Positions 42,044 to 62,012 of a stretch of 64,000 bases of DNA are shown here, one piece after another. The stretch is from Phytoamicus setariae (GTDB taxonomy: Bacteria > Pseudomonadota > Alphaproteobacteria > Rhizobiales > Rhizobiaceae). Under the pieces are notes generated by a model. The model had not been told where the DNA came from. It ran no database searches and worked only from the letters and a program-made list of their open reading frames with translations. The stretch is taken from the NCBI RefSeq assembly GCF_016722925.1, contig NZ_JAEQNC010000009.1, positions 1 to 64,000 of the forward strand, given 5' to 3'. The position numbers and the translations under genes were made by a program. Every line of letters begins with the position of its first letter. The first letter of the stretch is position 1.

Positions 42044-42275
42044 ACTATGGACTCTGGAATTGATGACGTTGAGCCCTATTGAGAATTTTGCGGACCCGAT
42101 GTCAAGCGCCGCACCGTTTCGGGCAATCAGCCCGGCGATGTTGCAAGGCAATTACGCAAGCTAATCTGGTTTTGCTGATGATTCAGACTATATTCCTACC
42201 AATTCGCGGGATGCGATCCGTACGCCCCTGCGTCGCCGGCCCGAAGCGACATGTGATGGAAAGATCGAAAAGACC

Positions 42276-44745: not shown

Positions 44746-46641
44746 ATGATCGGTGGAAGCGATCTCTTACGGATAGAAAATCTCAACATCTCCTTCTCCC
44801 TGCTCGGTGGGAAAATCGAAGCGGTCAAGAAAGCCGAGTTGCGTGTTCTGCCAGGCAAGGTGACGGCGCTGGTCGGTGAGTCCGGCTCGGGCAAATCGGT
44901 GATCAGCCAGGCCGTCATGGGAATTCTCCCGCAGATCGCATCGGTCAGTGGCAAAATACTGTTCAACGACACGGTCAACGGCAACGGACCGGTCGATATC
45001 CTGAGCCTGCCGCGGGATGGGGCACAGATTCGCGCCCTGCGCGGCAATCGCATGGGAAAGATCTTCCAGGAGCCGATGACCTCGTTGTCGCCGCTCCATA
45101 CAATCGGCAACCAGATCTCCGAAGTCCTGACAATTCACTCGGAATACAAGAAGGACGAGAGACGAGAGCGTACCGAGGAAATGCTCGGCCTGGTGGGATT
45201 TGCCAAACCTTCCCGTGCGTTCGACATGTATCCGTTCGAGTTGTCGGGCGGCATGCGCCAGCGCGCCATGATCGCCATGGCGCTGATCTGCCGCCCTTCC
45301 CTGCTGATCGCCGACGAACCGACGACGGCGCTCGACGTGACGATCCAGGCACAGATTCTGCAGTTGTTGCGCGAACTGCAGACCAAGCTCAATATGGCCA
45401 TGCTTCTGATCACCCATGATCTGGGCGTCGTGGCGAATGTGGCCGACGAGGTCGTGGTCATTTATCACGGCGAGATCATGGAAGCCGGCCCCGTCGAGAC
45501 AATTTTCCGCCGGCCTGCCCACCCCTATCTGAAAGGGCTCATGTCAGCCGTGCCGCATTTCGACATGCAGCGGGGCGAACGGCTCAAGTCGCTGCGTGAA
45601 GTGCCCGTCAACGTCAGCAACCTTCTGGAAAAGCGGACCGTCGATGCCGAAAGCCAGTCGGGAACAATCCTGTCTGTTCGCAATGTCGTAAAATCCTTCT
45701 CCGCACGCAGCTCCAGCTGGTTCGGAAAGAGCGATGCGAACCTGACACGCGCGGTCGACGACGTAAGTTTTGACGTGCGGCGCGGTGAATGCCTCGGACT
45801 GGTGGGCGAAAGCGGCTGCGGCAAAACCACGCTCAGCAAGATTCTGATGCGCGCCATCACCCCGAATTCCGGTGGCGTCATGTTCAATAGCAGTGACGGA
45901 CAGCAGATTGATGTCCTTGCGGCAAGCGGCCATGAACTGGAGGAACTGCGGACGAAGATACAGATGGTCTTTCAGGATCCGGTCTCTTCATTGTCTCCCA
46001 GAATGACCATTCAAAACATTCTCAGCGAGCCATTGGAAATCCATGATCGCGGCAATGCAAAATCCCGTTCGGAAAAAGTTGCTGCGCTCATGGCGGCAGT
46101 CGGATTGGACAGGCGTTACCTCAACCGCTATCCGCACGGGCTTTCTGGCGGCCAGCGCCAGCGCATCGGTATTGCCCGCGCCCTCGCCCTCGGGCCGGAA
46201 ATCGTGATCTGCGACGAGCCGGTTTCAGCGCTCGACGTGTCTGTGCAGGCCCAGATCCTCAATCTGCTGAAGGATTTGCAGAAGGAGCTCGGCCTTACCT
46301 ACATTTTCATTTCGCACAATCTGGCGGTTGTCGATTATATGGCCGACCGGATCGCTGTTATGTGCGGCGGACGGATAGTCGAACTCGCCCCGCGCAATCA
46401 GCTCATGCAATCGCCGGTGCACCCCTATACGAAATCCCTGCTTGCGGCCGTGCCATTTCCAGACCTCGACCGCCCGCTTGACTTTGCCAGCCTGATTTCA
46501 AGCGGCGCATCCGACAAACGCAACTGGGGTACGCAGTTCCGTGACGACGGCGATGTCAGCAGCCTTGCGGCGGCTGACCTTGGTGGAGGACATCTGGTGC
46601 TTGCGCGCAGGAACGTCGATGCCAGGGAGTTACGACCTTGA
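44746..46641 (+). CDS. Fused ABC ATP-binding protein, peptide/oligosaccharide importer system 3
   Basis: A 631-residue protein with two nucleotide-binding domains. The first has Walker [10 protein letters not shown] at 44-52 (Val for Thr, tolerated), ELSGGMRQR and [12 protein letters not shown]; the second has GESGCGKTT, GLSGGQRQR and IVICDEPVSALD. Both look functional. A C-terminal tail of about 50 residues after domain 2 is extra. It is the first gene of a four-gene importer operon with ATGA-type overlaps throughout. Confidence 0.9.
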   Translation: MIGGSDLLRIENLNISFSLLGGKIEAVKKAELRVLPGKVTALVGESGSGKSVISQAVMGILPQIASVSGKILFNDTVNGNGPVDILSLPRDGAQIRALRGNRMGKIFQEPMTSLSPLHTIGNQISEVLTIHSEYKKDERRERTEEMLGLVGFAKPSRAFDMYPFELSGGMRQRAMIAMALICRPSLLIADEPTTALDVTIQAQILQLLRELQTKLNMAMLLITHDLGVVANVADEVVVIYHGEIMEAGPVETIFRRPAHPYLKGLMSAVPHFDMQRGERLKSLREVPVNVSNLLEKRTVDAESQSGTILSVRNVVKSFSARSSSWFGKSDANLTRAVDDVSFDVRRGECLGLVGESGCGKTTLSKILMRAITPNSGGVMFNSSDGQQIDVLAASGHELEELRTKIQMVFQDPVSSLSPRMTIQNILSEPLEIHDRGNAKSRSEKVAALMAAVGLDRRYLNRYPHGLSGGQRQRIGIARALALGPEIVICDEPVSALDVSVQAQILNLLKDLQKELGLTYIFISHNLAVVDYMADRIAVMCGGRIVELAPRNQLMQSPVHPYTKSLLAAVPFPDLDRPLDFASLISSGASDKRNWGTQFRDDGDVSSLAAADLGGGHLVLARRNVDARELRP

Positions 46642-48548
46642 TCAAGCGGCGAACCATCCTTGGCATGCTTGCCTGCAGTAGTATTCCCGGGCTTGTCAGC
46701 GCACGGTCGCGAGAGCCGGACTTCCTCTGGGAGAAACTGCGCGCAGCCGCCCTGCCGGATATCTCTGATCGATTGCCAAAAACACCGCGCGTCATCAACC
46801 TGGCGGCGATGGGGCGACAACCCGGAAACTATGGCGGCGTGATACGCACCTTGATCGGCGGCCAGAAGGACATCCGGCTGATGACAATCAACGGCTATGC
46901 AAGGCTGGTCGGCTACGACGAAAAGCTCGCAATGCATGCCGATATTCTTGAGAGCTACGAGACGATCGAGGATCGGATCTTCACCTTCCGGATTCGCGAA
47001 GGCCACAGATGGTCGAATGGCAATGACCTGACCGCCGAGGATTTCCGTTATTGCTGGGAAGATGTCTATCTGAACAAGGACCTCAAACGCGGCGGCCTGC
47101 CCAGAGAACTCATGGTCGATGGCAAGGCACCGCGCTTTGAAGTCCTGGACAAGTTCACCGTGCGCTATACCTGGCATGCACCAAATCCCGATTTCTTGCC
47201 CAAGCTGGCCGCGCCACAGCCACTGGTGATCGTCCTGCCTTCCGCCTACCTCAAGATGTTCCACAAGCAGTATCAGGACAGCTTTCGGCTCTCCTCGCTG
47301 GTCAAGCAGTATCGCGCGAAAAAATGGACCGATCTGCATCTGAAGATGTCTCGCAGCTATCGGCCCGAGAATCCTGACCTGCCAACGCTGGATCCCTGGC
47401 GCAACACCACCGCTCCCCCAGCCGAACAATTCGTCTTCGAACGCAATCCGTACTTCCACCGTGTCGATGAAAACGGCCTGCAACTGCCATACATAGACCA
47501 GGTCATCCTGAATGTGAGTTCGTCGGAAATCATCGCGGCCAAGACCGGATCCGGAGAAAGCGACCTGCAGTCGAATGGCATCGACTTCGCAGACTATGCC
47601 TTTCTGAAGGACGCGGAGAAACGATATCCTGTCAAGGTCAGTCTCTGGAAACGCACCCAGGGCTCCAGGGTGACCTTGCTGCCAAATTTGAACTGCACCG
47701 ATCCCGTCTGGCGAGCGATTTTCCAGGATGTTCGCGTCAGACGGGCCCTGTCGCTCGCCATCGACAGGGCGGAGATAAACAAGGCTGTCTTCTACGGACT
47801 TGCAGCCGAGAGCGCCGACGCCGTCTTGCCTGAAAGTCCGCTGTTTCGGCCCGAATACAAGACTGCCTGGAGCACGCATGATCCGGAGCAGGCCAATGCG
47901 CTTTTGGATGCCGCCGGCCTGGTTGCGCGGGATGACGACGGCCTCCGGCTCCTGCCTGATGGCAGGAGCGCCCAAATTGTCGTCGAGACGGCCGGAGAGA
48001 GCACGCTCGAGACCGATATTCTGCAGCTCGTGACGGATCACTGGCGGGCGATCGGCGTGTCGCTTTTCATCAAGACCTCGCAGCGTGACGTTTTCCGCAG
48101 CAGGGCCATGGGCGGCAGCATCATGATGTCGATGTGGTCCGGGCTCGATAACGGCATTCCGACGGCCGACATGAGTCCGGCCGAGCTCGCCCCGACCGGC
48201 GATGAGCAGTTGCAATGGCCCGTCTGGGGGATCCACTACCTGTCAAATGGCCAGAAGGGAAAGCCGCCTGAACTGCCCGAGGCAGCGGAACTGATTGACC
48301 TGCTGCATCAATGGGGCAAAACGGTCGACATGGAGGAGAGGGCCGATATCTGGACGAAGATGCTCAAAATCCATTCGGAGCAGGTTTTTTCCATCGGCAT
48401 CGTCAACGCCACGCATCAGCCGGTATTGCGGTCCTCCCGGCTGCGCAACATACCGGACGTGGCACTCTACGGCTTCGACCCGACCAGCTATCTCGGCGTC
48501 TACATGCCTGACACATTCTGGTTTGGCGAGGAAGCCCTGCCGTCATGA
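46638..48548 (+). CDS. Large SBP_bac_5-type substrate-binding protein, system 3
   Basis: A 636-residue exported protein, about 100 residues longer than standard peptide-binding proteins and in the range of oligosaccharide-binding relatives such as AgpA. The N-terminus MIKRRTILGML resembles a short twin-arginine signal. The body has FTFRIREGHRWSNGNDLTAEDF and RVRRALSLAIDRAEI, typical of the family. It starts at TTG with a four-base overlap to the ATPase stop. With the lyase upstream, I infer uptake of glycan fragments rather than peptides. Confidence 0.85.
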   Translation: MIKRRTILGMLACSSIPGLVSARSREPDFLWEKLRAAALPDISDRLPKTPRVINLAAMGRQPGNYGGVIRTLIGGQKDIRLMTINGYARLVGYDEKLAMHADILESYETIEDRIFTFRIREGHRWSNGNDLTAEDFRYCWEDVYLNKDLKRGGLPRELMVDGKAPRFEVLDKFTVRYTWHAPNPDFLPKLAAPQPLVIVLPSAYLKMFHKQYQDSFRLSSLVKQYRAKKWTDLHLKMSRSYRPENPDLPTLDPWRNTTAPPAEQFVFERNPYFHRVDENGLQLPYIDQVILNVSSSEIIAAKTGSGESDLQSNGIDFADYAFLKDAEKRYPVKVSLWKRTQGSRVTLLPNLNCTDPVWRAIFQDVRVRRALSLAIDRAEINKAVFYGLAAESADAVLPESPLFRPEYKTAWSTHDPEQANALLDAAGLVARDDDGLRLLPDGRSAQIVVETAGESTLETDILQLVTDHWRAIGVSLFIKTSQRDVFRSRAMGGSIMMSMWSGLDNGIPTADMSPAELAPTGDEQLQWPVWGIHYLSNGQKGKPPELPEAAELIDLLHQWGKTVDMEERADIWTKMLKIHSEQVFSIGIVNATHQPVLRSSRLRNIPDVALYGFDPTSYLGVYMPDTFWFGEEALPS

Positions 48549-49543
48549 TCAAATATATCCTCTGGCGCATCGCTGCGATGATCCCGACCTTGCTGCTGAT
48601 TTCAGCCTTGGTGTTCACGATCATCGAATTGCCCCCCGGCGACTATTTCGAAAGTTATGTTTCCGACCTGCAGGCGCAGGGCGAAGCGGTCGACATGCAG
48701 GAAATCGAAGAACTGCGCGAGCAGTACGGGTTCGATAAGCCACCGGTGCTGCGCTATTTCTACTGGGTGGCAGGCATGCTGCACGGCGACTTCGGCTATT
48801 CCTTCGAATACCAGTTGCCTGTGAAAGAGGTTGTCGGCGATCGCTTGTGGCTGACCGTCATGGTCTCGTTCTTTACGATCATATTCACATGGCTCATCGC
48901 GTTTCCGATCGGCATCTATTCGGCGACCCATCAATACAGTTGGGCCGATTACGGACTGACATTCGTGGGCCTGATTGGCATCGCCATACCGAATTTCATG
49001 TTCGCGCTCATCCTGATGTATTTTGCCAATATCTGGTTTGGAACATCGATCGGCCACCTGATGGACCAGAAATATCTGGCCGAGCCGATGAGCTGGGCGA
49101 AGGCGAAATCCATTCTGGAGCATGTCTGGATACCGGTGCTGATCGTCGGGACCGCCGGCACGGCCGGCATGATCCGCCGACTGCGCGCCAACCTGCTGGA
49201 CGAACTGCAAAAGCAATATGTGGTCACCGCGCGCGCCAAAGGTCTGCATCCCTTCAAGACGCTGATCAAATACCCGCTGCGCATGTCGCTCAACTTCTTC
49301 ATATCCGACATCGGCTCCATCCTTCCGGCCATCATTTCCGGCGCCGAGATCACCGCGATCGTGCTGTCACTTGAAACGACCGGCCCGATGCTGATCAAGG
49401 CGCTTCAAAGCCAGGATATGTATCTCGCTGGATCCTTCCTGATGTTCCTGGCTTTCCTCACCGTGATCGGCGTGCTGATCTCCGACATTGCACTCGCCTT
49501 TCTGGATCCGCGGATCAGGCTGCAGGGTGGGAGTACAAAATAA
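48545..49543 (+). CDS. ABC permease (OppB/DppB-like), system 3
   Basis: A 332-residue membrane protein. The first helix is followed by a periplasmic segment with the family block LPPGDYFESYV and LREQYGFDKPPVLRYFYW, then five to six helices, and the EAA loop TARAKGLHPFKTLIKYPLR. It overlaps the binding-protein stop as ATGA and its own stop overlaps the next start (TAATG). Confidence 0.9.
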   Translation: MIKYILWRIAAMIPTLLLISALVFTIIELPPGDYFESYVSDLQAQGEAVDMQEIEELREQYGFDKPPVLRYFYWVAGMLHGDFGYSFEYQLPVKEVVGDRLWLTVMVSFFTIIFTWLIAFPIGIYSATHQYSWADYGLTFVGLIGIAIPNFMFALILMYFANIWFGTSIGHLMDQKYLAEPMSWAKAKSILEHVWIPVLIVGTAGTAGMIRRLRANLLDELQKQYVVTARAKGLHPFKTLIKYPLRMSLNFFISDIGSILPAIISGAEITAIVLSLETTGPMLIKALQSQDMYLAGSFLMFLAFLTVIGVLISDIALAFLDPRIRLQGGSTK

Positions 49544-50715
49544 TGTCCTACCTGCCGGAATCAGGCGCCCCGCTGTCTCACTATGTTTCGACCACGCCAT
49601 TCGACCCTTATTCCGTCGAGGAGATGACCGGCGAGCAAAGCCGCGTCTATCAGGCCTCGCAGCTGCGGTTGATGTGGTGGAAATTCCGAATGCACAATTT
49701 GGCGGTCATTTCCGCGGTCTTCCTGGGCATTCTCTACTTGATGATCCTCATCGTCGAATTCCTCGCCCCTTACAACCTCCACACCCGCAACGTCGACTTC
49801 ATTCACGCGCCGCCACAACAGGTCCACCTGTTCGACAAAGGCAGCTTTGTGGGCCCCTTCGTCTATGGGCGCGAAATGAAGCTGGACATGGACACGCTGC
49901 GGCGCGTCTACACCGACAATCCCGACAAGGTTGAGCCCCTTCGATTCTTCTGCTCGGGCGATCCCTACAAGTTCTGGGGCATGGTCGAGGCCAACACGCA
50001 CCTTGTCTGCCCTGCCGAGGGCGGTCAGTTCTTTCTGCTGGGCAGCGACAGGCTGGGGCGAGATGTGCTGTCGCGCATATTGTACGGTGCACGGATCTCC
50101 TTGACGATCGGATTGATCGGCATTGTCATCAGCTTCACTCTCGGAATCATGATCGGAGGATGGGCTGGCTACCATGGCGGCTGGTTCGATCTCGCTGTGC
50201 AACGCGTCATCGAAGTTTTGCAATCTATCCCCAGTATTCCACTCTGGATGGCATTGGCGGCGATCATGCCGATCACCTGGAGTCCGATGCTGATCTACCT
50301 GGGCATTACCGCAATCCTCGGATTGCTTGACTGGACCGGACTGGCCAGGGCGGTGCGATCCAAGCTTCTTTCGTTGCGCGAGGAAGATTACGTTCAGGCG
50401 GCGCAATTGATGGGCGCCAAAAGCAGCAGGATCATTGGCCGGCACCTAGTTCCAGGCTTCATGTCGCACCTGATCGCGACGGCAACCTTGTCCATTCCGG
50501 GTATGATCCTGGGGGAAACCGCACTCAGTTTTCTCGGACTTGGACTGCGTCCGCCGATCACCAGTTGGGGCATCCTGCTCACCGAGGCCCGCAGCGTCAG
50601 CGTGATCGTCTTCTATCCTTGGTTGCTATTTCCGATCATCCCGGTCATTCTCGTCATCCTCGCTTTCAACTTCCTCGGCGATGGCTTGCGTGATGCCGCA
50701 GACCCATACAAATGA
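49543..50715 (+). CDS. ABC permease (OppC/DppC-like) with enlarged periplasmic loop, system 3
   Basis: A 390-residue membrane protein, about 100 longer than a standard DppC. The extra part lies between the first helix (ends near residue 75) and the hallmark LLGSDRLGRDVLSRILYGARIS (near 165): a periplasmic loop of about 85 residues carrying two Cys (FFCSGDPYKF and LVCPAEGG). Similar extended loops occur in oligosaccharide importers of this family. The EAA loop AAQLMGAKSSRIIGRHLVPG is intact. Confidence 0.88.
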   Translation: MSYLPESGAPLSHYVSTTPFDPYSVEEMTGEQSRVYQASQLRLMWWKFRMHNLAVISAVFLGILYLMILIVEFLAPYNLHTRNVDFIHAPPQQVHLFDKGSFVGPFVYGREMKLDMDTLRRVYTDNPDKVEPLRFFCSGDPYKFWGMVEANTHLVCPAEGGQFFLLGSDRLGRDVLSRILYGARISLTIGLIGIVISFTLGIMIGGWAGYHGGWFDLAVQRVIEVLQSIPSIPLWMALAAIMPITWSPMLIYLGITAILGLLDWTGLARAVRSKLLSLREEDYVQAAQLMGAKSSRIIGRHLVPGFMSHLIATATLSIPGMILGETALSFLGLGLRPPITSWGILLTEARSVSVIVFYPWLLFPIIPVILVILAFNFLGDGLRDAADPYK

Positions 50716-50788: not shown

Positions 50789-52000
50789 ATGACGCGCCGA
50801 TTGGATGATGCACGTATTCTGATGTACAGCCACGACACGTTCGGCCTGGGCCATTTGCGCCGCTGCAGAACAATCGCGCACTCGCTCGTCGAGGATTATC
50901 GAGGTTTGCATGTGCTAATTATCTCCGGCGCGACAATCGCCGGAGCCTTCGACTATCGAGCGCGCGTCGACTTCGTGAAGATCCCAAGCGTCATCAAGCT
51001 GCGCAACGGCCAGTACGAATCGATGGAACAGCACATGGACCTGCACGATACGATGCAGATGCGCCAATCGATCATCCGCCATACCGCTGAAACTTTTCAG
51101 CCCGACATCTTTGTCGTCGACAAGGAGCCTTTGGGACTGGAAGGCGAGGTCGAGGAGACCCTTTCATTCCTGAAGGCTCGCGGAACCACATTGGTGCTCG
51201 GCCTGCGCGAAGTCATGGACGCGCCGCGGCTGCTCGATGCGGAGTGGAAACGGAAGAACGTCATGGACAAGATTTCCCGTTTCTACGACGAGATATGGGT
51301 CTACGGCCCCCCCGATTTCTATGACCCGCTGGTCGGCCTGGAAGTCCCGAAACCCGTCCGCGACAAGATGAGTTTCGTTGGTTTCCTCCAGCGCAGCGTA
51401 CCCAGATCCGAACTACCGGGTCACGTCCCCACAGGCGAGTACATTCTCGTCACTACCGGAGGCGGCGGCGACGGAGCCGATCTCGTCCACAACGTCATGC
51501 ATGCCTACCAGCAGGATCCGGGGCTGACCCACAGGGCCTTGGTGGTCCTCGGGCCGTATATGCCCGCTAAGAAGCGTCGCAAGCTGATCCGCAAGGGAGC
51601 GTCGATTCCCTATCTGGAGGTCATCGAGTTTGACAACCGGATGGAAGAACTTGTTGCCGGGGCGACAGCCGTCGTGGCGATGGGCGGCTACAACACTTAT
51701 TGTGAAATCCTCTCATTCGACAAGCCGGCGCTGATTGTCCCTCGTGTCCAGCCGCGCGAGGAGCAATTGATCCGGGCTCAGCGAGCCGCCGAACTGGGGT
51801 TGGTCGACATGTTGCTGCCGGAGGAGGCGGAAGACCCTATCCGGCTTGCGGCTGCGCTCAAAACATTGCCTTCGCGCCAACCACCGTCGAAAAGTGCGCC
51901 GGCCGGATACCGTCTTGAAGGGCTGCCTCACATCACTGAACTCGTCGGAGACTTGTTCGATCAACGGCAACCCGGACAATTGACGCTTGTCAAGGCATGA
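50789..52000 (+). CDS. MurG-like glycosyltransferase (GT28-type fold)
   Basis: A 403-residue GT-B-fold protein. The N-terminal loop is MYSHDTFGLGHLRRC, as in MurG-type donor/acceptor lobes; the C-terminal lobe carries the nucleotide-binding segments TTGGGGDGADL and VAMGGYNTYCEILSFDKPALIVP. It should transfer a sugar from a nucleotide donor to a glycan or lipid intermediate on the cytoplasmic side. It is a paralogue of the gene at 53365, with a GT4 enzyme between them; all three form one plus-strand unit. Confidence 0.82.
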   Translation: MTRRLDDARILMYSHDTFGLGHLRRCRTIAHSLVEDYRGLHVLIISGATIAGAFDYRARVDFVKIPSVIKLRNGQYESMEQHMDLHDTMQMRQSIIRHTAETFQPDIFVVDKEPLGLEGEVEETLSFLKARGTTLVLGLREVMDAPRLLDAEWKRKNVMDKISRFYDEIWVYGPPDFYDPLVGLEVPKPVRDKMSFVGFLQRSVPRSELPGHVPTGEYILVTTGGGGDGADLVHNVMHAYQQDPGLTHRALVVLGPYMPAKKRRKLIRKGASIPYLEVIEFDNRMEELVAGATAVVAMGGYNTYCEILSFDKPALIVPRVQPREEQLIRAQRAAELGLVDMLLPEEAEDPIRLAAALKTLPSRQPPSKSAPAGYRLEGLPHITELVGDLFDQRQPGQLTLVKA

Positions 52001-52117: not shown

Positions 52118-53368
52118 ATGTCAAATCGTAGCAAGATCGTCGTGGTTCTGAAGGGTTATCCCCGCCTTTCGGAGACCTTCATCGCCCAGGAATTACTGGG
52201 ACTTGAGAAAGCCGGTCTTGACCTGGTGCTGGTCGCACTGCGTCGGCCGACTGACAAGAAGAGGCACCCCGTACACGACGAGATACGCGCGCCAGTGTAT
52301 TACCTGCCTGAATATCTGCACCACGAGCCCGTTCGCGTTCTATCAGCACTGGTTTCTTGCCTGCCGAAGCTCGGTCTCTGGCGCGGACTGGCTTCATTTG
52401 CCAAAGATCTGCTTAAGGACCCGACCCGCAATCGGGTCCGCCGTTTCGGACAGGCAGCTGTCCTCGCTGCCGAATGGCCGGATGGCGGGCAATGGATTCA
52501 CGCACATTTTATCCACACCCCAGCATCCGTTGCCGCGTATGCAAGTCAGATCACCGGGATTGCCTGGACCTGCTCTGCGCATGCCAAGGACATCTGGACG
52601 TCGCCGAGTTGGGAATTGAAGGGAAAATTGGCCAGTACACGCTGGACGGTAACGTGCACGCATACCGGCTTTGACCACTTGCGTCGCCTTGGCGCGCCGA
52701 CGTCGCGTGTCCATCTGAGCTACCATGGTCTGGACCTGTCGCGTTTCAGCCCCTTCGAGGGCGTTCGCTCGCGCCGCGACGGCAGCGACCGCGACGAACC
52801 CGTCAGAATCCTCAGTGTAGGCCGTGCCGTGGAGAAGAAGGGCTACGACATCCTGCTGCGCGCCCTCAGCCTTCTGCCATCGAATCTTTCCTGGAAATTC
52901 GAACATATCGGCGACGGCGACAGTATCAAGCGCCTCAAGGGCCTTTCGGAGGAGCTCGGTATTGCTGACAGGATCGACTGGAAAGGCGCGCTGGACCAGA
53001 AGGATGTTCTTGCCGGCTATCGCGATGCCGACATCTTTGCGCTTGCCTGCCGGATCACCAGCGACGGCGACCGAGACGGGCTCCCCAACGTTCTAGTCGA
53101 AGCCTCCAGCCAGGGGCTGGTTTCCATATCGACCAATATCTCCGGCGTCCCCGAACTTCTGATCGATGGACAAAACGGCCTCGTTGTCCCCCCCGAAGAT
53201 CCCAAAGCGCTTGCAGCGGTGCTGGAAACCGCGATCAGGGACGCGGATCTTCGCCACCGCCTTGGGCAAGCAGCCGAAAAACGCGTGCGGACAGAGTTTG
53301 ATTCCAGCGCCAGCATCCGGCAACTGAAATCCCTGTTCGAAACCGAATGGCAAGCCGGCAAGTCATGA
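52118..53368 (+). CDS. Glycosyltransferase family 4
   Basis: A 416-residue GT-B glycosyltransferase. The donor-site region shows SVGRAVEKKGYDILLRAL, then GLPNVLVEASSQGLVSI with the conserved acidic residue and SGVPELLIDGQNGLVVPPEDP. It retains the anomeric configuration in known family members and adds one sugar to a growing glycan. Its stop overlaps the start of the next glycosyltransferase (ATGA). The ribosome site is weak. Confidence 0.87.
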   Translation: MSNRSKIVVVLKGYPRLSETFIAQELLGLEKAGLDLVLVALRRPTDKKRHPVHDEIRAPVYYLPEYLHHEPVRVLSALVSCLPKLGLWRGLASFAKDLLKDPTRNRVRRFGQAAVLAAEWPDGGQWIHAHFIHTPASVAAYASQITGIAWTCSAHAKDIWTSPSWELKGKLASTRWTVTCTHTGFDHLRRLGAPTSRVHLSYHGLDLSRFSPFEGVRSRRDGSDRDEPVRILSVGRAVEKKGYDILLRALSLLPSNLSWKFEHIGDGDSIKRLKGLSEELGIADRIDWKGALDQKDVLAGYRDADIFALACRITSDGDRDGLPNVLVEASSQGLVSISTNISGVPELLIDGQNGLVVPPEDPKALAAVLETAIRDADLRHRLGQAAEKRVRTEFDSSASIRQLKSLFETEWQAGKS

Positions 53369-54534
53369 GTGTAAGCCCGAAGATACGCGTACTCTTTTAC
53401 GTTCAGCATCTGCTTGGGATCGGCCATCTGGCACGGGCCAGCCGGATAGCGAGGGCTTTGGTCGGCAAGGATTTCGATGTCACGATGGTGACGGGCGGAA
53501 TGCCCGTCCCGGGCTTTCCCGGCCCGGACCTGAAGAACATCGCGCTGCCGGCGATTGCCACCGGCGATTCGGGCTTCTCGGGGCTTGTGGATGCGTCCGG
53601 CAACATCGTCGATGACGCCTTCAAGGCCGAACGGCGCGATAAGCTGATCGCAGCATTCCGCAAGATCCAGCCGGATATCGTGATCATCGAGGCGTTCCCT
53701 TTCGGGCGCCGGCAGGTCCGCTTCGAGCTACTGCCGCTCCTTGATGAAATCGCCGCTATGGAGAGAAAACCCCTGGTCGCATGTTCTTTGCGCGATATCG
53801 TGCAGGCACGCAACAAGCCCGGCCGCGACGATGAAAGTGTTGCACTTGTCGATCGCTATTTCGACCATGTGCTCGTTCACGGCGATCCCGGCTTTGCGCG
53901 GCTGGAGGATAGCTTTCCGCTTTTTGATATGATCGCCGACAAGGTGCTCTACACCGGCCTTGTGGCCGCACCTGCGCCTCCCCCCGCGACCGAGACATTC
54001 GACATCGTTGTTTCGGCTGGCGGCGGCGCAGTAGGCATAAACCTCATCCGGGCAGCGGCGGAATCGGCCAGGCATCTGCCGAAATCGCTGAACTGGTGCA
54101 TCGTCACCGGGCCAAACCTGCCGCAGGCAGATTTCGACGCGCTGGCGCTCGACGCGCCTGCCAACACGAACCTCTTCCGGTTCCGGCCGGATTTCCCTAG
54201 CCTTCTGACACGCGCCCGCCTGTCGATATCTCAAGCCGGATACAACACCGTTTGCGATATTCTGCGGGCAGGATGCCAATCCTTGCTGATCCCGTTTACT
54301 GCCGGCGGCGAGACCGAACAGACAGAAAGGGCGGCGCGCCTGGAGGAGCGGGGACGAGCCTTCGTCTTGACGGAGGCCGCGCTTTCGCCGGTAACCATGC
54401 AGGCCGCGATTGAAAAAGCGCTTTCCTCGGCCGTAACAAACCTGCAGGCACTCGATCTCGACGGCGCCAACCGAACAGCTGATATCCTGCGCGCCCTGTC
54501 GGCGACCGCTCTCGACAAGCCACAGCGCGTCTGA
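53365..54534 (+). CDS. MurG-like glycosyltransferase, paralogue of the upstream one
   Basis: A 389-residue GT-B protein beginning MSVSPKIRVLFYVQHLLGIGHLARASR. The C-terminal lobe has VSAGGGAVG and SQAGYNTVCDILRAGCQSLLIPF plus an acidic GGETEQTERA loop, the pattern of GT28-type enzymes. It resembles the 50789 gene in both lobes, so the two probably arose by duplication and act at related steps. The start at 53365 overlaps the preceding stop (ATGA). Confidence 0.83.
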   Translation: MSVSPKIRVLFYVQHLLGIGHLARASRIARALVGKDFDVTMVTGGMPVPGFPGPDLKNIALPAIATGDSGFSGLVDASGNIVDDAFKAERRDKLIAAFRKIQPDIVIIEAFPFGRRQVRFELLPLLDEIAAMERKPLVACSLRDIVQARNKPGRDDESVALVDRYFDHVLVHGDPGFARLEDSFPLFDMIADKVLYTGLVAAPAPPPATETFDIVVSAGGGAVGINLIRAAAESARHLPKSLNWCIVTGPNLPQADFDALALDAPANTNLFRFRPDFPSLLTRARLSISQAGYNTVCDILRAGCQSLLIPFTAGGETEQTERAARLEERGRAFVLTEAALSPVTMQAAIEKALSSAVTNLQALDLDGANRTADILRALSATALDKPQRV

Positions 54535-54546
54535 CTGAGACGAAAT

Positions 54547-55224
54547 CTAGACTGTGCCGATAAGCATGAAACGCGTGTACTTTTTCATCGGCAGCGATCC
54601 GGCGAAATCTATCTGGCGAAGCGCGGCTTGCGCGACGAACGCCTCGAGCGACGGCACGCAATTCACATGAGTGGGTTCGCTGAAATAGTCGTTCGATTGC
54701 AGGAGAACGCGCGTGCCACGCGGCAAGAGCCGCAGCCACCCAGGCAGATCGGCGATATGCTCGCAGCTGGTATTGATCAGAAGACCGGCATCAAGTTCGT
54801 CATAGGCGAGCGAATACATGTCGCCGGTGAGCGCGCGAAATCGGTCCTTCCAGGCTTGGTTCAACGTCTCGGCAACATTTCCAACATCAGGATCAATGTC
54901 GAAACTGTCTATCGAACCGATCTCAAAGCGCGTGTCGTCAAAAAACATGGCCGCCAGCACACCGTACCACCCGCCCAGAATGACGATGCGTTTGAATTTT
55001 CCGCCGACAGTGTCAAATAGTGCTTGTCTTGCCCACATTTTGCAGGCCACTTGCTTGTGATTGAAAGCGACCGCGACATCTGCTTGCGGGTGATGGGCAA
55101 TGACCTCGGAGAGACCACGTATCAGAGGACTGGACGTGTAGGCGCCAACCCCGCGCATGACGTCAAATGCGGCCTCGTGCCAGTCGGTTGCTGTCGATGT
55201 ATCGGTGTCCATGGTTTTCGTCAT
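54547..55224 (-). CDS. Methyltransferase-like protein
   Basis: A 225-residue protein with a Rossmann-like start at IVILGGWYGVLAAMFF and the acidic residue of a SAM site in SIDSFDIDPDVG; later segments (ALTGDMYSLAYDELDAGLLINTSCEHI) fit a class I methyltransferase. The glycine loop is not canonical, so SAM binding is likely but not certain. It is transcribed against its neighbours and ends 12 bases after the convergent glycosyltransferase stop. The target is unknown; a glycan or lipid is suggested by context. Confidence 0.65.
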   Translation of the reverse strand: MTKTMDTDTSTATDWHEAAFDVMRGVGAYTSSPLIRGLSEVIAHHPQADVAVAFNHKQVACKMWARQALFDTVGGKFKRIVILGGWYGVLAAMFFDDTRFEIGSIDSFDIDPDVGNVAETLNQAWKDRFRALTGDMYSLAYDELDAGLLINTSCEHIADLPGWLRLLPRGTRVLLQSNDYFSEPTHVNCVPSLEAFVAQAALRQIDFAGSLPMKKYTRFMLIGTV

Positions 55225-55859: not shown

Positions 55860-58574
55860 ATGGAAAACAGTCTGCTGCAATACATCTGGAGACATACGCG
55901 CAAGCAGCAACTGTGGATCCTGCTCGTCGTCGCGGTTTCCATGATCCCGTATTTTCTCTCGTTCGACCTGCCCAAGCAGATTGTCAACGGGCCGATCCAG
56001 GGCAAGGGCTTTGAGTCGGAGGGCGCGACCCAGATTTTCATGCGAATCGCGTTCGACCTGCCCGGTCTCGGCAATGTCGTGCTGTTTCCCGGCGTTGAAC
56101 TTGGCCGCATGGCGATGTTGTTTGCCCTCAGCATGGTGTTCCTGCTGCTGGTCATCATCAACGGCCTGTTCAAGTTCTACATCAATACCTACAAGGGCCG
56201 TCTCGGCGAACGCCTGCTGCGGCGCATACGCTTCGAACTCGTCGACCGGATCCTCCGTTTTCCGCCAAACCAGTTCAAGCGGGCCAAAGGTGCCGAAGTC
56301 GCCAGCATGGTCAAGGATGAGGTCGAGCCGCTCGGCGGCTTTACCGGCGATGCATTCGTCTCTCCGGCCCTGCTCGGCGGACAGGCGCTAACAGCCCTCA
56401 TATTCATCATCGCGCAGAATATGTGGCTGGGGTTGATTGCCGCCGCCATGGTCGGGATCCAGGGCTTCATCATCCCCCGCATGCGCCGGAGACTGCTTGT
56501 ATTGGGCCGCGAGCGCCAGCTGACCGCGCGCGAGCTGTCCGGTCGTGTCAGCGAAATCTTCGATGGCATAGGCACGATCCGGGCCTATGACACATCCAAC
56601 TACGAGCGGGCCGATATAGCCAATCGGCTCGGCCAGATTTTCAAGATCCGCTATGATCTTTACCAATGGAAATTTCTGGTCAAGTTCATCAACAACTTCC
56701 TCGCCTCTGTAACACCCTTCCTGTTCTATGCTTTCGGCGGCTACCTTGCCCTCAAGGGACAGCTTGACATCGGGCAGCTTGTGGCCGTGATCGCTGCCTA
56801 CAAGGACCTGCCAGGGCCATTGAAGGAGCTGATCGACTGGGACCAGATGCGGCAGGACGTTCAAGTCAAATACGTTCAGGTCGTCGAGCAGTTCAGCGTC
56901 GACGGAATGCTCGAAGAAGAAATCCATTCGCTGGCGACCGAACCGGCAAAGCTGCACGATGCTTCGCTGGCGACCGTCAACCTTTCGCTGACCGATGACA
57001 GCGGCGCCCGCTTGCTGTCTGCCGTGTCGATGCAAGTCAATCCGGGTGAGACAGTGGCGATCGTCGGGACCGCAGCCTCGGGCGGCGAAGCGCTTGCTGA
57101 AGCCTTTGCGCGGATAATCTGGCCGGACACTGGGAAGATCGTGCTCGGCGGCAGCGACATGAGAAGCCTGCCGGAATCTGTCACCGGCAGGCATCTGTCC
57201 TACGCGTCGTCAGATACGTATCTGTTCCAAGGGTCGTTGCGCGACAACCTGCTTTACGGCCTGAAGCACGCACCGCTGACGGAGTACGCTTACGACGAAG
57301 CTGGTGAGAAGCACCGAAAATGGGCAGTCGCCGAGGCACGCCTTGCCGGAAATCCCGATTACGATGTCAACAGCGACTGGATAGACTACGCCGCGGCCGG
57401 TGCGACCGGACCGGAAAGCATTTCCGTTGCCATTGCCGAAGCTCTGGATGCGGTGCTGCTTGCCAAGGATATCCTTGATCTTGCCATGCGTTCGATCGTC
57501 AATCCCGCCGAGCATCAGGATCTCGTGGAGCGGATCGTAGAAATACGCCATGCGCTGAGGACCGAACTGGACGAGGAAAATCTCAGCAGTCTCGTAGTGT
57601 CATTCGAACCGGGCGCCTACAATACCGAGGCGACAGTCGGCGAAAACCTCCTCTTCGGAACCGCCACAGGACCACAGTTGATGGGACGCGCGATCGGCAG
57701 CAACCAGTATTTCCTGTCTGTCATGCGCCGAACCGGGCTCGACCGCATCCTGTACGAAATGGGGCTCGAGATTGCCGAAAATGCGGTCAACCTGTTCGGT
57801 GATCTGCCGCCCGATCACCCGTTCTTCCAGCAGTTGACCTTCATGACGGCAGACGACCTGCCGCAATACCAGCTCCTCCTGCAAAAGCTGAAAGGCAAGC
57901 GCCTTGAAGATGTCGCTCCAGATGATCTGGTCAGTATCATCCGGCTGAGTTTCCTCTATATCGAGCCGCGGCACCGCTTTGGCCTTCTCACAGACGAGCT
58001 GATGGCGAAGATTGTCGCCGTCAGACAGGAATTCCACGAGGGGCTGCCGGCCGATCTTTCGGACGCAATCGAGCGCTACGACCCCGAGCGCTACATGACG
58101 GCAGCGACCCTGCTCGACAACGTTCTGCTCGGGAAAATAAGCCACAAGCATCCGGACGGATCGGAACGAATTCGCTCCATCATCCGCAAGTTGCTTTTCT
58201 CCCTGGGGCTTTACGAAAGCGTCCTGTCGATTGGCCTTGAGTTCAACGTCGGTGCCGGGGGACGTCGTCTTACCTCGGTTCAGCGACAAAAACTGAACCT
58301 GGCCAGGGCGATCATCCGGCGGTCGGCGCTCTATGTCTTCAATCGCCCGCTGGCCAGCCTCGATCTTCGCATTCAGGATCAGATTCTTCGCAACGTACTG
58401 GAATTGCTCCGTAAGAATGTCGACGCGCCCACAATTCTATGGGTGCTCTCGAATTCCTCTATGTCGGAGCTATTCGACCGTGTCGTGGTATTCGACAAAG
58501 GCAAGCTCGTCGAAGATGGGACGCATGCAGCGCTCATCGAGAGCAACGGCATTTTTAGAGAACTTGTGTCATAA
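55860..58574 (+). CDS. ABC-exporter-like membrane protein with degenerate ATPase and large insert
   Basis: 904 residues. Residues 1-330 form a type I exporter-like membrane domain with about six helices and typical loops (GLVLxxxERQLTARELSGRVSEIFDGIGTIRAY-like region at 213-243). Residues 365-900 are a nucleotide-binding-like domain in which all motifs are lost: Walker A is GTAASGGEAL at 403-412 (Lys to Gly), the Q-loop Gln is Ser, the signature is LTSVQ at 804-808, Walker B is YVFNRPLASLD at 825-835 (Asp-Glu to Asn-Arg), and the switch His is missing in WVLSNSSMS. A roughly 300-residue insert (about 470-775) separates the two halves and repeats a VGENLLFG/LLDNVLLG-type motif. It probably cannot hydrolyse ATP. 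It sits with a CNB and an MBL gene. Confidence 0.85.
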   Translation: MENSLLQYIWRHTRKQQLWILLVVAVSMIPYFLSFDLPKQIVNGPIQGKGFESEGATQIFMRIAFDLPGLGNVVLFPGVELGRMAMLFALSMVFLLLVIINGLFKFYINTYKGRLGERLLRRIRFELVDRILRFPPNQFKRAKGAEVASMVKDEVEPLGGFTGDAFVSPALLGGQALTALIFIIAQNMWLGLIAAAMVGIQGFIIPRMRRRLLVLGRERQLTARELSGRVSEIFDGIGTIRAYDTSNYERADIANRLGQIFKIRYDLYQWKFLVKFINNFLASVTPFLFYAFGGYLALKGQLDIGQLVAVIAAYKDLPGPLKELIDWDQMRQDVQVKYVQVVEQFSVDGMLEEEIHSLATEPAKLHDASLATVNLSLTDDSGARLLSAVSMQVNPGETVAIVGTAASGGEALAEAFARIIWPDTGKIVLGGSDMRSLPESVTGRHLSYASSDTYLFQGSLRDNLLYGLKHAPLTEYAYDEAGEKHRKWAVAEARLAGNPDYDVNSDWIDYAAAGATGPESISVAIAEALDAVLLAKDILDLAMRSIVNPAEHQDLVERIVEIRHALRTELDEENLSSLVVSFEPGAYNTEATVGENLLFGTATGPQLMGRAIGSNQYFLSVMRRTGLDRILYEMGLEIAENAVNLFGDLPPDHPFFQQLTFMTADDLPQYQLLLQKLKGKRLEDVAPDDLVSIIRLSFLYIEPRHRFGLLTDELMAKIVAVRQEFHEGLPADLSDAIERYDPERYMTAATLLDNVLLGKISHKHPDGSERIRSIIRKLLFSLGLYESVLSIGLEFNVGAGGRRLTSVQRQKLNLARAIIRRSALYVFNRPLASLDLRIQDQILRNVLELLRKNVDAPTILWVLSNSSMSELFDRVVVFDKGKLVEDGTHAALIESNGIFRELVS

Positions 58575-59331: not shown

Positions 59332-60174
59332 TTGCAAACAGGGAAGAGTAACAGCGTGTTTCGATTGCGTGCCTGGGGGGTTCGGGGCAGCCTGCCGGTT
59401 TCCGGGCCCGACTTCCGGGTCTACGGCGGCGATACTGTCTGCATTGAAATGCAATGCGGAGAACACAGGCTGTTGTTTGACGCCGGTTCCGGCATCCTTC
59501 CCGCCGGCAAGGCATTGCTCGAAGACGATGTGTCGGCGTTCAACCTGTTTTTCACCCATTGCCACTACGATCACATCATCGGCCTGCCGTATTTCGCACC
59601 TTTGTTCGATGCCCGCTCGACAGTGGATGTCTGGACTGGCCACATGGCTGGAAAGATGACGACGCGGCAGATGATTGCCGAATTCATCCGCCCACCCTGG
59701 TTTCCTATCGAAATAAATGCCTGCCGCGCCAATCTTCGTTGCCGTGATTTCAAGGCGCCTGACGTGCTCGAACCGTTTCCGGGTCTGCGGATAAAGACCG
59801 GCAATCTCAATCACCCGGGTGGCGCGATCGGTTACCGTGTGGAATGGCAGGGACACTCCGCCGCATTGATCACCGATACGGAACACCTGCCGGGGGTTCT
59901 GGACACGGCAGTCCTCGAATTGATCGACGGGGTCGATATCTTCCTCTACGACACGACCTACACGGATCAGGAAATGGCCCGGCATGCCGGCTACGGACAC
60001 TCGTCCTGGCAACAGGCCATTCGTCTCGCCAAGGCCGCCGATGCGAAGAAGGTGGCTTTCATACATCATTCACCACTGAGAACCGACAAGCAGATCAAGG
60101 CGATCGACAGGATGGCCGTGCAGCAATTCGCTGGCGCATTCTCAGCCCATCAGGGACAGGTCATCGATCTCTGA
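59332..60174 (+). CDS. MBL-fold metallo-hydrolase
   Basis: A 280-residue metallo-beta-lactamase-fold protein. The metal motif THCHYDH is near residue 76, with downstream His/Asp ligands around HPGGAIGYR, LITDTEH and FIHHSPLR. It begins RLRAWGVRGSLPV, like CpdP-type and other MBL phosphodiesterases, so cleavage of a cyclic nucleotide or phosphodiester is one plausible role; this is inference. The start is a TTG with a GGGGG ribosome site some 12 bases before. The 252-base gap upstream (59080-59331) holds nothing else that I can support. It converges with the deacetylase gene at one base. Confidence 0.8.
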   Translation: MQTGKSNSVFRLRAWGVRGSLPVSGPDFRVYGGDTVCIEMQCGEHRLLFDAGSGILPAGKALLEDDVSAFNLFFTHCHYDHIIGLPYFAPLFDARSTVDVWTGHMAGKMTTRQMIAEFIRPPWFPIEINACRANLRCRDFKAPDVLEPFPGLRIKTGNLNHPGGAIGYRVEWQGHSAALITDTEHLPGVLDTAVLELIDGVDIFLYDTTYTDQEMARHAGYGHSSWQQAIRLAKAADAKKVAFIHHSPLRTDKQIKAIDRMAVQQFAGAFSAHQGQVIDL

Positions 60175-60921
60175 TCAGCTTTCGCGCAGCAACTCCGGCA
60201 GCGATGTCCAGGCGCAGGCAGCGTGGCCTGCAGTGACTTGCAACAAGCTGTCGATGAAGTGCCAAGCTTGCTCGTCATGCACCAGATGATGCGTCAGAAA
60301 TCCCATGCTGCCGCCATTGTCGAACATCTCCCGCAGGCGTTTGACGATATCGGTTACGAGGGCTTCGCGGGGCCGCGCACCTCTGGTTCCATGCCAGTCT
60401 ATCAGGTCGACATGGGTGTTGATGAGGCGGATCGAGGCCGGCTTTTCCGGTCCGAACACCGATAGCGCCTCGAAACCGAGGCCCGGAAGCTGAGCGGCTA
60501 TGGAAGGAGCGATCCGGTTCCAGGGCGGAACGAGAACGGCGGCAAAGCGACCTTGATGCAAATTGCGCAACCTTTCGAAGCCCGCCTCGATTTCCGCAAC
60601 CACGACTTCAAGCGGCCTGTGTGCGCCGAGTTCCTGCTTCTTTTCATTGGTTGCCGCGTGATTGGTATGCGACCAGCCATGGACGGCGACATTTGCCAAA
60701 GGCATCTTATCGAGATAGCCGGCAAGGGCCTGCCCCGTGTGAACAGGGATGACCGCAAGCGTTACGGGGACTGCGTGGCGGCCTGCGCATTCAAGCAGCC
60801 GCGAGAGTGCCGCCGTCGGCTCGACAGCATCGTCATCCCTCAACCAGAAGCGTGCGATCTTGCCGCCCGCCCGCCAACGGTCGAGTTCCCTAGTCAACGG
60901 GTTCCATACGTCATTCGCCAT
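60175..60921 (-). CDS. Polysaccharide deacetylase-family protein
   Basis: A 248-residue NodB-fold protein. The Asp-Asp metal/base region is LRDDDAVEP at about residues 28-36, the His pair is in HGWSHTNHA (H-x3-H-type) at about 82-90, and the C-terminal GFLTHHLVHD supplies another His. It removes acetyl groups from amino sugars or a related glycan, probably in the cytoplasm or at the membrane since no signal peptide is seen. The ATG at 60921 overlaps the stop of the glycosyltransferase gene (TGATG). Confidence 0.82.
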   Translation of the reverse strand: MANDVWNPLTRELDRWRAGGKIARFWLRDDDAVEPTAALSRLLECAGRHAVPVTLAVIPVHTGQALAGYLDKMPLANVAVHGWSHTNHAATNEKKQELGAHRPLEVVVAEIEAGFERLRNLHQGRFAAVLVPPWNRIAPSIAAQLPGLGFEALSVFGPEKPASIRLINTHVDLIDWHGTRGARPREALVTDIVKRLREMFDNGGSMGFLTHHLVHDEQAWHFIDSLLQVTAGHAACAWTSLPELLRES

Positions 60922-62012
60922 CAAATCCCACCAACAAACTGATCTAGAATTGCAGCAAGACGTTCGCTCGCCGCCTGAAAAGAGCGCTCCTGCCGGGCAA
61001 ACTGCAGCGCACCGGCTGCCAGCGCCTTGCGTTGCACGTCATCGGTCAAAAGCAGGCGGATCGCATCCGCGTAGGCTTGAAGGTCGCCCGATGGCGTCAG
61101 GATTCCCGAGCGGCCGTCCACGACCACTTCCGGCACCCCACCTTCCGCCTGCCCAACGACCGGCAGGCCGGCGGCCTGCGCTTCGAGATAGGACAACCCA
61201 TAGGCTTCCCGGCACCCCGGCCACAGGAATATGGAGCCCTCGGATAGCAACACGGCAACCTCTTCGGCCGGCTTCAAACCATGCCACTCGACACGGCCGG
61301 GAGGAAAAGCGGCAAATGCTGCCTCGACCTCTTTTCGGCAAACGCCGTCACCGGCGATTGCCAGCGTCCAGGGCAGATCCAGAAGCAGTTCCAGCGCCCG
61401 CGCCAGCATGCAATAGCTCTCCAGCTTGTTGCCCTCGCGCATCATTGCCACCGTTGCCAGCCGGCCCGGCTGTGGATTTGGCTCAAGGGATCGAACCCTG
61501 CTGGAATCGAGAAACGGTGGCAACATGGCCGTTCGCGCCGTCGGCAGTGCTTTGATTAGCCCCTCCTGGTCACGCCGGGTGAAGCAAATGTTGACCGCAG
61601 CCTGCTCCACCGCCGCGAGGGCCTCGGCCTGTGACTGCGCCCACACACCAATATTTCGACGGGAGGAGTATGATGCCTCGGCGGTTACATATGGCAGCGA
61701 AAACGACCGGGCGAGATCCAGACCGATGAGATCCGGCGACTTGTAATAGGGATGATAGGTAAACCAGAGATCCGGCGCGCCCTCGCGAAGCCAGAGAGCC
61801 GAAAGCCTCTCGCACTCGGCCTCGGCCTGCTTCTTCAGGGTCGAATAGAGCTCGGACGACGGTTCTTTCAGGTAGGTGCGCAATTCCGAAACGACGTCAA
61901 CCTGATGGCCGGCATGTTCGAGCGCGGATTTCAACAGCCGCGCCATCAATCGGTCTCCCGACGGAACTGGATGGCTTGCCGGCTTCAGTGGCGCATATAG
62001 AGCTATCTTCAT
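60921..62012 (-). CDS. Glycosyltransferase family 4, CapM/RfaB-like
   Basis: A 363-residue GT4 protein. The N-terminal lobe is KIALYAPLKPASHPVPSGDR, and the C-terminal lobe carries the E-x7-E motif in EAYGLSYLEAQAAGLPVVG and GGVPEVVVDGRSGILTP. It adds a sugar to a glycan intermediate on the cytoplasmic face. It is translationally coupled to the deacetylase downstream, suggesting that the added sugar is later de-acetylated (inference). It is divergent from the aldehyde dehydrogenase gene. Confidence 0.87.
   Translation of the reverse strand: MKIALYAPLKPASHPVPSGDRLMARLLKSALEHAGHQVDVVSELRTYLKEPSSELYSTLKKQAEAECERLSALWLREGAPDLWFTYHPYYKSPDLIGLDLARSFSLPYVTAEASYSSRRNIGVWAQSQAEALAAVEQAAVNICFTRRDQEGLIKALPTARTAMLPPFLDSSRVRSLEPNPQPGRLATVAMMREGNKLESYCMLARALELLLDLPWTLAIAGDGVCRKEVEAAFAAFPPGRVEWHGLKPAEEVAVLLSEGSIFLWPGCREAYGLSYLEAQAAGLPVVGQAEGGVPEVVVDGRSGILTPSGDLQAYADAIRLLLTDDVQRKALAAGALQFARQERSFQAASERLAAILDQFVGGI

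Follow-up and report, generated by a model that had tools for sequence, protein, structure and literature searches.

A pseudo-ABC exporter family of Alphaproteobacteria with replaced ATPase motifs and a putative cyclic-nucleotide-binding partner

A stretch of 64,000 nucleotides from Phytoamicus setariae (contig NZ_JAEQNC010000009.1, positions 1 to 64,000; hereafter the window) encodes a 904-residue protein that is built like an ATP-binding cassette (ABC) exporter and in which the residues of the ATPase motifs are replaced. This protein, called here the pseudo-ABC exporter, belongs to a family found across the Alphaproteobacteria. The pseudo-ABC exporter is almost certainly under selection, and the small cyclic-nucleotide (cNMP)-binding protein encoded next to it is very probably its partner. 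We propose, with a probability of about one half, that it is an ATPase-dead, cNMP-responsive gate or scaffold of exporter fold that serves a surface-glycan system and is syntenic with part of the region for the surface polysaccharide PPP (phazolicin-protecting polysaccharide) of S. meliloti.

ABC exporters are the textbook example of ATP-driven motion. If the proposal is true, a class-wide ATP-dead family, with an insert of repeats of its own coupling subdomain and a link to a second-messenger sensor, would show an exporter fold working without ATP, and rhizobial cyclases, together with a surface polysaccharide linked to antibiotic tolerance in passages of a study (PMC10128002), would gain a direct, testable effector. 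A literature search, judged on titles and abstract openings and consisting mostly of listings, found no description of this pseudo-ABC family, which is no proof of absence. In the plasmid records examined, those homologues that carry an annotation at all are mostly named as the ATP-binding or the transmembrane-domain protein of an ABC transporter; the plasmid gene tables used (PLSDB) are incomplete.

ATPase motifs in the window protein and its family

The reading frame of the pseudo-ABC exporter has an ATG start and no internal stop (coordinates of all features are given in Table 1). Its product passes the Pfam cut-offs for both ABC_membrane (residues 90-312, 82.4 bits, cut-off 28) and ABC_tran (residues 387-528, 40.4 bits, cut-off 25), and is thereby a member of the ABC exporter superfamily by descent. 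Two AlphaFold2 models, built from 33 and 104 sequences, reached mean predicted local distance difference test (pLDDT) scores of 82.8 and 89.4, the second with a predicted template modelling (pTM) score of 0.85. With both models, Foldseek gave ABC transporters in all 50 rows listed, and the predicted fold is that of a type IV exporter. The best PDB matches by sequence are likewise type IV exporters (MsbA, TmrAB, TM287/288, P-glycoprotein), which share the membrane domain and the fold of the nucleotide-binding domain (NBD); by fold, PaMsbA (9bd6) matches at E 3.2e-17 with a TM-score by target of 0.62. The window protein differs from all of these by its replaced ATPase residues, a repeat insert of about 270 residues and its cNMP partner. 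It also stays below the cut-off of the MsbA lipid A flippase model TIGR02203 of NCBIfam (184.6 bits, cut-off 602).

Alignment with relatives bore out what a preliminary description of this DNA had read from the letters. Walker A is GTAASGGEAL, with Gly409 in place of Lys; Walker B has Asn828-Arg829 in place of Asp-Glu; the signature is LTSVQ; the Q-loop Gln and the switch His are gone, Ser standing at both columns. The D-loop (ASLD) and the exporter membrane domain are kept in a clean frame. Hence none of seven scored features of a functional ABC ATPase is found in the window protein, namely the Walker A Lys, the Walker A Ser/Thr, the Q-loop Gln, the Ser plus second Gly of LSGGQ, the Walker B Asp, the Walker B Glu and the switch His.

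The family is well delimited. Among the host and 60 relatives searched, 29 of 61 genomes have a match at E 1e-60 or better; the host itself has one full-length match, its remaining matches being partial and at most 55 bits. A contig scan found 397 stretches that code for relatives. The 80 best, which were retained, stem from rhizobia and related bacteria at 65-75% identity. A class-wide profile search matched 132 of 385 Alphaproteobacteria genomes at E 1e-70 or better. In a phylum sample, 32 of 398 genomes matched, and the sole one outside the class (L178; L numbers denote loci) is a membrane-domain-only piece on a short contig. Among the 45 lowest-scoring matches, ordinary ABC proteins reach at most 120 bits, membrane-domain-only relatives 249-298 and a diverged side group (L171-L173, L179-L182) 297-318; other full-length members score at least 694. 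The side group has a strongly diverged membrane domain and retains the insert; five representatives scored keep none of the seven features, and no cNMP gene was found in the group.

The Walker A Lys is absent from all 31 relatives aligned with the window protein at 31-84% identity. For a broader census, 294 loci gave 275 family frames with an NBD, 255 of them unique, and 184 representatives at 90% identity. The number of features kept was zero in 68 representatives, one in 38, two in 34, three in 29, four in 14 and five in a single one; none of the 184 kept six or seven. On identical columns, 27 ordinary ABC proteins, taken from the same loci and partly non-independent, scored seven (8 proteins) or six (19 proteins), the latter missing only the Q-loop column (gap or Ser), which is the least reliable of the seven. 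Taken one by one, the Walker A Lys is kept by 73 representatives, the Walker B Glu by 65, the switch His by 36, the Walker B Asp by 30, the Q-loop Gln by 25, the Walker A Ser/Thr by 17 and the signature Ser plus Gly by 8.

In a tree of 182 family rows and 8 ordinary exporters, the family forms one clade, across which partial motif sets are scattered. One pattern recurs, a Walker A Lys followed by Glu or Asp and paired with an Asn-Glu Walker B; Lys at column 409 and Asn at column 828 make up 45% and 56% of 106 rows. We infer that the ATPase was lost stepwise across the family and that the loss is complete in the window protein. The preliminary description had taken the motifs to be lost all together and had drawn from this a selected, non-hydrolytic role. 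The first part fails, census and tree ruling out a simultaneous loss: relatives hold different subsets, and individual losses vary among them. The second part stands on class-wide conservation, purifying selection, the absence of a complete ATPase set from all 184 representatives and relatives without an NBD that keep the membrane-domain residues (see below). The preliminary description had named an intact Walker A and B in close homologues as a refutation of its reading; none of the close homologues examined shows this, although four distant representatives do (see below).

The frame is maintained. Over 87 close rhizobial pairs, the median ratio of non-synonymous to synonymous substitution rates (dN/dS) is 0.079 (range 0.020-0.263), indicating purifying selection. 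By part (85-87 pairs), the ratio is 0.050 for the membrane domain, 0.071 for the NBD core and 0.101 for the insert, and the mean top-residue frequency is 0.60 for the membrane domain versus 0.51; the membrane domain is thus the best conserved and most constrained part, above NBD and insert. Motif loss by itself could mean a decaying gene or a sequence artefact, a notion that the clean frame, the class-wide conservation and the dN/dS refute and to which we give a negligible chance; a pseudogene is ruled out by the dN/dS.

Membrane domain, insert and cyclic-nucleotide-binding protein

Three features that the preliminary description did not contain, namely relatives without an NBD, the repeats of the insert and the downstream cNMP-binding gene, bear on what the protein may do. 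Seven NBD-less proteins, some of them mutually close, share this membrane domain and were aligned. Of the 45 positions that show at least 95% conservation among 104 diverse full-length members, 32 are retained by every one of the seven. These NBD-less relatives are the strongest indication that the membrane domain does something for which no ATPase is needed. Copper-resistance genes lie beside the gene in five of seven neighbourhoods looked at (L174, L175 and plasmids of Phaeobacter, Pseudosulfitobacter and Thalassospira), those of L177 and L178 being covered by a listing of open reading frames (ORFs) only. The NBD-less genes in copper-resistance islands are at L175:7516-8727, L174:7543-8817, L217:5872-7341, L218:5761-7065 and L222:5998-7197. 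Three of these genes, carried by plasmids of marine alphaproteobacteria, are annotated, each as an ABC transporter protein; within 6 kb of them the incomplete PLSDB tables list no ABC ATPase gene. For the gene of Pseudosulfitobacter, 61 plasmid records contain close DNA matches.

The insert is placed, with high prediction confidence, between the Q-loop strand and the signature helix. With E values up to 1 allowed, neither PDB nor Pfam gives a match to the window insert. Profile comparison with hhalign indicates that it contains additional copies of the NBD core's Q-loop/helical unit: units 2 and 3 match each other at 99.35% probability (E 5.6e-21), and unit 1 matches them at 80% and 92%. The best of 42 control comparisons, which set units 2 and 3 against other parts of the protein (mostly the membrane domain), reached 4.5%. 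In the C-terminal half, the residues invariant in the 104 diverse members are G425, R563, N596, R722, N754 and G758. Most of them lie within units 2 and 3, where R563/N596 and R722/N754 hold equivalent positions, and none is an ATPase motif residue. In ordinary exporters, helical units of this kind face the membrane domain; the repeats may contact the membrane domain or the cNMP protein.

The protein encoded downstream has PF00027 as its only Pfam domain and no DNA-binding domain in Pfam. By this, and by its score against the CRP model (46 bits, cut-off 266), it does not qualify as a CRP/FNR transcription regulator. A weak match (42 bits, cut-off 161) to the bacteriocin-transport-associated family TIGR03896 recalls cNMP-regulated membrane proteins in which a cNMP module is tied to a membrane transporter; the difference lies in the score below the cut-off and in the pairing of the module with an ATPase-dead exporter fold. 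Of the 181 unique loci in which at least 700 bases of downstream sequence were available, 158 have a cNMP gene directly after the pseudo-ABC frame on the same strand; the matched domain begins a median of 69 bases after that frame ends. The remaining 23 are mostly fusions, and in 6 further loci the downstream sequence was too short for the check. Among the 184 representatives, the domain is encoded adjacently in 154, fused C-terminally in 17, absent in 12 and undecided in one. Pfam confirmed a fused domain in eight of nine members scanned, the ninth, L126, being without one, and all 17 fused members sit within one clade of 19. The Glu and Arg of the PF00027 pocket, which we take to be the cNMP-binding residues, are both present in the window protein (Glu83, Arg92), in 148 of the 154 adjacent proteins and in 11 of the 17 fused domains.

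Adjacency across the class, together with fusion, is strong evidence for a physical unit, and the pair would bind cNMP and form a complex. No other ligand sensor is as consistently linked to the pseudo-ABC exporter as the cNMP subunit. Among the roles offered in the preliminary description (scaffold, channel or gated receptor), finding this partner favours the gated receptor. A gain of the cNMP partner was also considered as the cause of ATPase loss and showed no clean correlation: L126, L137 and L139, without a cNMP domain, keep four of seven features, as do L140, L145 and L225, which have one, and five further members without the domain keep none.

The surface-glycan island and its counterpart in S. 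meliloti

In rhizobia, the pseudo-ABC gene is part of an island of glycan genes (Table 1), and a role in surface glycan is likely there. In rhizobia, 75 loci include 8 kb on either side of the gene. All 75 have the cNMP gene, and 70, 71 and 71 have the three upstream glycosyltransferase genes. The metallo-beta-lactamase-fold, deacetylase-like and downstream glycosyltransferase genes each occur in 41 of these loci, the methyltransferase-like gene in 17. A nucleotide cyclase gene lies in the island of the window, and one is listed in the island of all four named rhizobial plasmids for which wide flanks were examined, namely those of S. meliloti ml46, Mesorhizobium WSM1497, R. leguminosarum 22B and Phyllobacterium T1293. 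In the window cyclase, the two metal-binding Asp seem to be present, in what we take to be its motif (GDMRQST, GDGFLAVY). The metallo-beta-lactamase-fold hydrolase bears a weak likeness to the cyclic-nucleotide phosphodiesterase model NF041851 (50.3 bits, cut-off 400).

Table 1. Features of the island and parts of the pseudo-ABC exporter in the window
Feature	Position	Strand	Remark
Nucleotide-sugar dehydrogenase	40700..42151	-	
Class III nucleotide cyclase	42276..43622	+	PF00211 33.7 bits, cut-off 21.9
Polysaccharide lyase	43400..44584	+	PF14099
Oligopeptide-type ABC importer: double ATPase, binding protein, permease	44746..50715	+	second permease 49543-50715 named by annotated position-equivalents
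Glycosyltransferase, GT28 C-terminal type	50789..52000	+	position matches gene inferred as SMb21265
Family 4 glycosyltransferase	52118..53368	+	
Glycosyltransferase, GT28 C-terminal type	53347..54534	+	
Methyltransferase-like protein	54547..55224	-	name from annotated position-equivalents; no Pfam match
Pseudo-ABC exporter, ATPase motifs replaced	55860..58574	+	904 residues
Transmembrane domain, residues 1-345	55860..56894	+	45 positions at least 95% conserved
Dead Walker A GTAASGGE, residues 403-410	57066..57089	+	alignment
Repeat unit 1, residues 425-484, Q-loop/helical unit of NBD core	57132..57311	+	profile comparison
Insert, residues 475-744	57282..58091	+	about 270 extra residues
Repeat unit 2, residues 553-632	57516..57755	+	profile comparison; invariant R563, N596
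Repeat unit 3, residues 712-791	57993..58232	+	profile comparison; invariant R722, N754, G758
Dead Walker B, residues N828-R829	58341..58346	+	alignment
cNMP-binding domain protein, 152 residues	58621..59079	+	PF00027 78.4 bits; 46 bases downstream of pseudo-ABC gene
Metallo-beta-lactamase-fold hydrolase	59332..60174	+	motif HCHYDH
Polysaccharide-deacetylase-like protein	60175..60924	-	name from position-equivalents in Mesorhizobium, Phyllobacterium; no Pfam match
Family 4 glycosyltransferase	60921..62012	-	

In S. meliloti, the gene order is LacI regulator, FkbM methyltransferase, cNMP protein, pseudo-ABC exporter, methyltransferase, an unlisted gap, family 4 glycosyltransferase and a further gap. 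Since SM_b21272 is given as the LacI regulator in passages of PMC11387232, this order, counting one gene per gap, would make the cNMP protein SMb21270, the pseudo-ABC exporter SMb21269 and the homologue of the window gene at 50789 SMb21265; the PLSDB records of strains 1021 and 2011 carry no gene table, and the tags follow from the order. According to passages of PMC10128002, nine genes in smb21252-smb21271 are needed for the uncharacterised surface polysaccharide PPP, mutants in smb21252 and smb21265 are hypersensitive to phazolicin, and the adenylate cyclase gene cyaA was depleted in the same screen, a single cyaA mutant changing little. Elsewhere, seven of the nine PPP genes are described as up-regulated under Myxococcus attack (passages of PMC10315480), and cAMP-Clr (cyclic AMP with Clr) as raising, perhaps indirectly, seven genes of the polysaccharide cluster nodP2-smb21248 (passages of PMC5498481), whose tags adjoin the smb21252-smb21271 interval. 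The window and this region share syntenic glycosyltransferase, methyltransferase, pseudo-ABC, cNMP protein, oligopeptide-type importer and cyclase genes. They differ in that the published passages name the polysaccharide genes as a group and give no role to the pseudo-ABC exporter or the cNMP protein.

Proposed mechanism and competing explanations

In the mechanism that we propose, the type IV exporter fold would be retained, and the NBD, no longer hydrolysing ATP and enlarged by additional Q-loop/helical units, would now serve structure and regulation. The pseudo-ABC exporter and the small cNMP-binding protein would act as one unit, encoded by adjacent genes or, in one clade, as a fused protein; in known exporters, an exporter half acts as a dimer. 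In the islands of rhizobia, the cNMP level would alter the state of the complex; the nucleotide cyclase encoded there probably sets this level. Binding of cNMP would set the conformation of the membrane domain via the repeated helical units. The neighbouring glycosyltransferases would make a surface polysaccharide, and the altered complex would gate or organise a late step in its production, either its passage across the membrane or its assembly. Motif loss, conservation, repeats, gene pairing and fusion, and synteny are observed; cNMP binding, complex formation, gating and glycan as the cargo are inferred. The dismantled ATP site, the partner gene for a cNMP sensor and, in rhizobia, the adjacent surface-sugar genes suggest a pump turned into a signal-controlled gate or scaffold in many alphaproteobacteria. 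That the protein is a gate or passive transporter, rather than a scaffold alone, has about an even chance. More tentatively, it is possible that the family consists of cNMP-gated, ATP-independent gates derived from an ABC exporter: the ATP switch would have been dismantled piecewise, the NBD rebuilt by unit duplication into a lever for the cNMP sensor, and glycan, or another substrate in the NBD-less cousins of copper islands, would pass down its gradient.

Several observations weigh against the proposed gate or scaffold. The Walker A Lys and Glu829 survive in 73 and 65 of the 184 representatives, and four of them, all distant (L258, L168, L169, L184), have complete Walker A and B motifs (Lys, Ser/Thr, Asp, Glu). 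L258 and L168 are each 36% identical to the window protein; L258, the best of the four, has neither the Q-loop Gln nor the second Gly of the signature. Two of the four (L168, L184) bear a fused cNMP domain. In view of these retained residues and motifs, some branches of the family may remain able to bind ATP, and the cNMP partner is not a simple replacement of the ATP site. Moreover, 12 of the 184 representatives have no cNMP domain, and Asp replaces the pocket Glu in 5 of the 17 fused domains, the sixth deviating one (L168) being cut off by the locus end. Regarding the island, the first glycosyltransferase is missing from 5 of the 75 loci, and in Phyllobacterium T1293 other genes replace all three upstream glycosyltransferases. 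The cyclase link was seen in rhizobial islands only: the incomplete gene tables list no cyclase near the homologues of Azospirillum lipoferum 4B (6 kb), Ruegeria SCSIO 43209 (6 kb) and Ruegeria AD91A (9 kb). As for S. meliloti, the published passages on PPP do not put the pseudo-ABC gene among the nine PPP genes and mention neither it nor the cNMP protein, and the homologue of Sm1021 is in two overlapping ORFs (L216:16667-19433, NC_003078.1, pSymB). In strain 2011 (L214) and in ml46 (L215) the homologue is in a single frame, the Sm1021 split being a strain difference or an error of an old record.

The strongest competing explanation is that the protein moves nothing and is a scaffold only, its membrane domain serving as the inner-membrane anchor for the cNMP sensor and the glycosyltransferases. 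The conserved glycosyltransferase neighbours, the complete loss of ATPase features in the window protein and the concentration of C-terminal-half invariants in the repeat units, a possible docking surface, would all fit. However, the membrane domain is the most constrained part of the protein and 32 of its 45 conserved positions persist in the seven NBD-less proteins, which points to a task of the membrane domain itself; we consider a pure anchor rather unlikely.

The pseudo-ABC exporter could also be the silent half of a heterodimer, paired with a second exporter that hydrolyses ATP and is encoded elsewhere. An NBD with altered catalytic residues is likewise found in heterodimeric exporters that have one degenerate site, the heterodimers TmrAB and TM287/288 are among the closest folds, and the host genome has other ABC exporters. 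Yet an ordinary exporter is encoded in just one of 127 loci of at least 10 kb, so that a dedicated ATPase-competent partner in the locus, which was sought, is not found in 126 of 127 and would have to lie elsewhere in the genome. In addition, the loss is complete in the window protein, whereas the degenerate halves of known heterodimers retain far more of the ATP site, and the insert has no PDB relative by sequence. We regard a silent half as improbable. Unconventional use of ATP, through residues outside the usual motifs, is very unlikely: Lys, Glu and His are kept in some members (L258, L126, L140) and the four complete Walker sets exist, but the window protein holds none of the seven features.

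Some side observations concern the surroundings of the gene. In Mesorhizobium, five annotated adenylate/guanylate cyclase genes lie in about 33 kb around the homologue (L295:2622-35537). The oligopeptide-type importer recurs in the island (window 44746-50715, L215:21551-27513, L295:27379-33348, L296:7144-13114) and is a possible partner for glycan or peptide uptake. Finally, in Ruegeria (L220:5989-9973, L221:9001-12985) the fused form, with no adjacent glycan genes listed, adjoins a CAAX/CPBP protease gene and accD.

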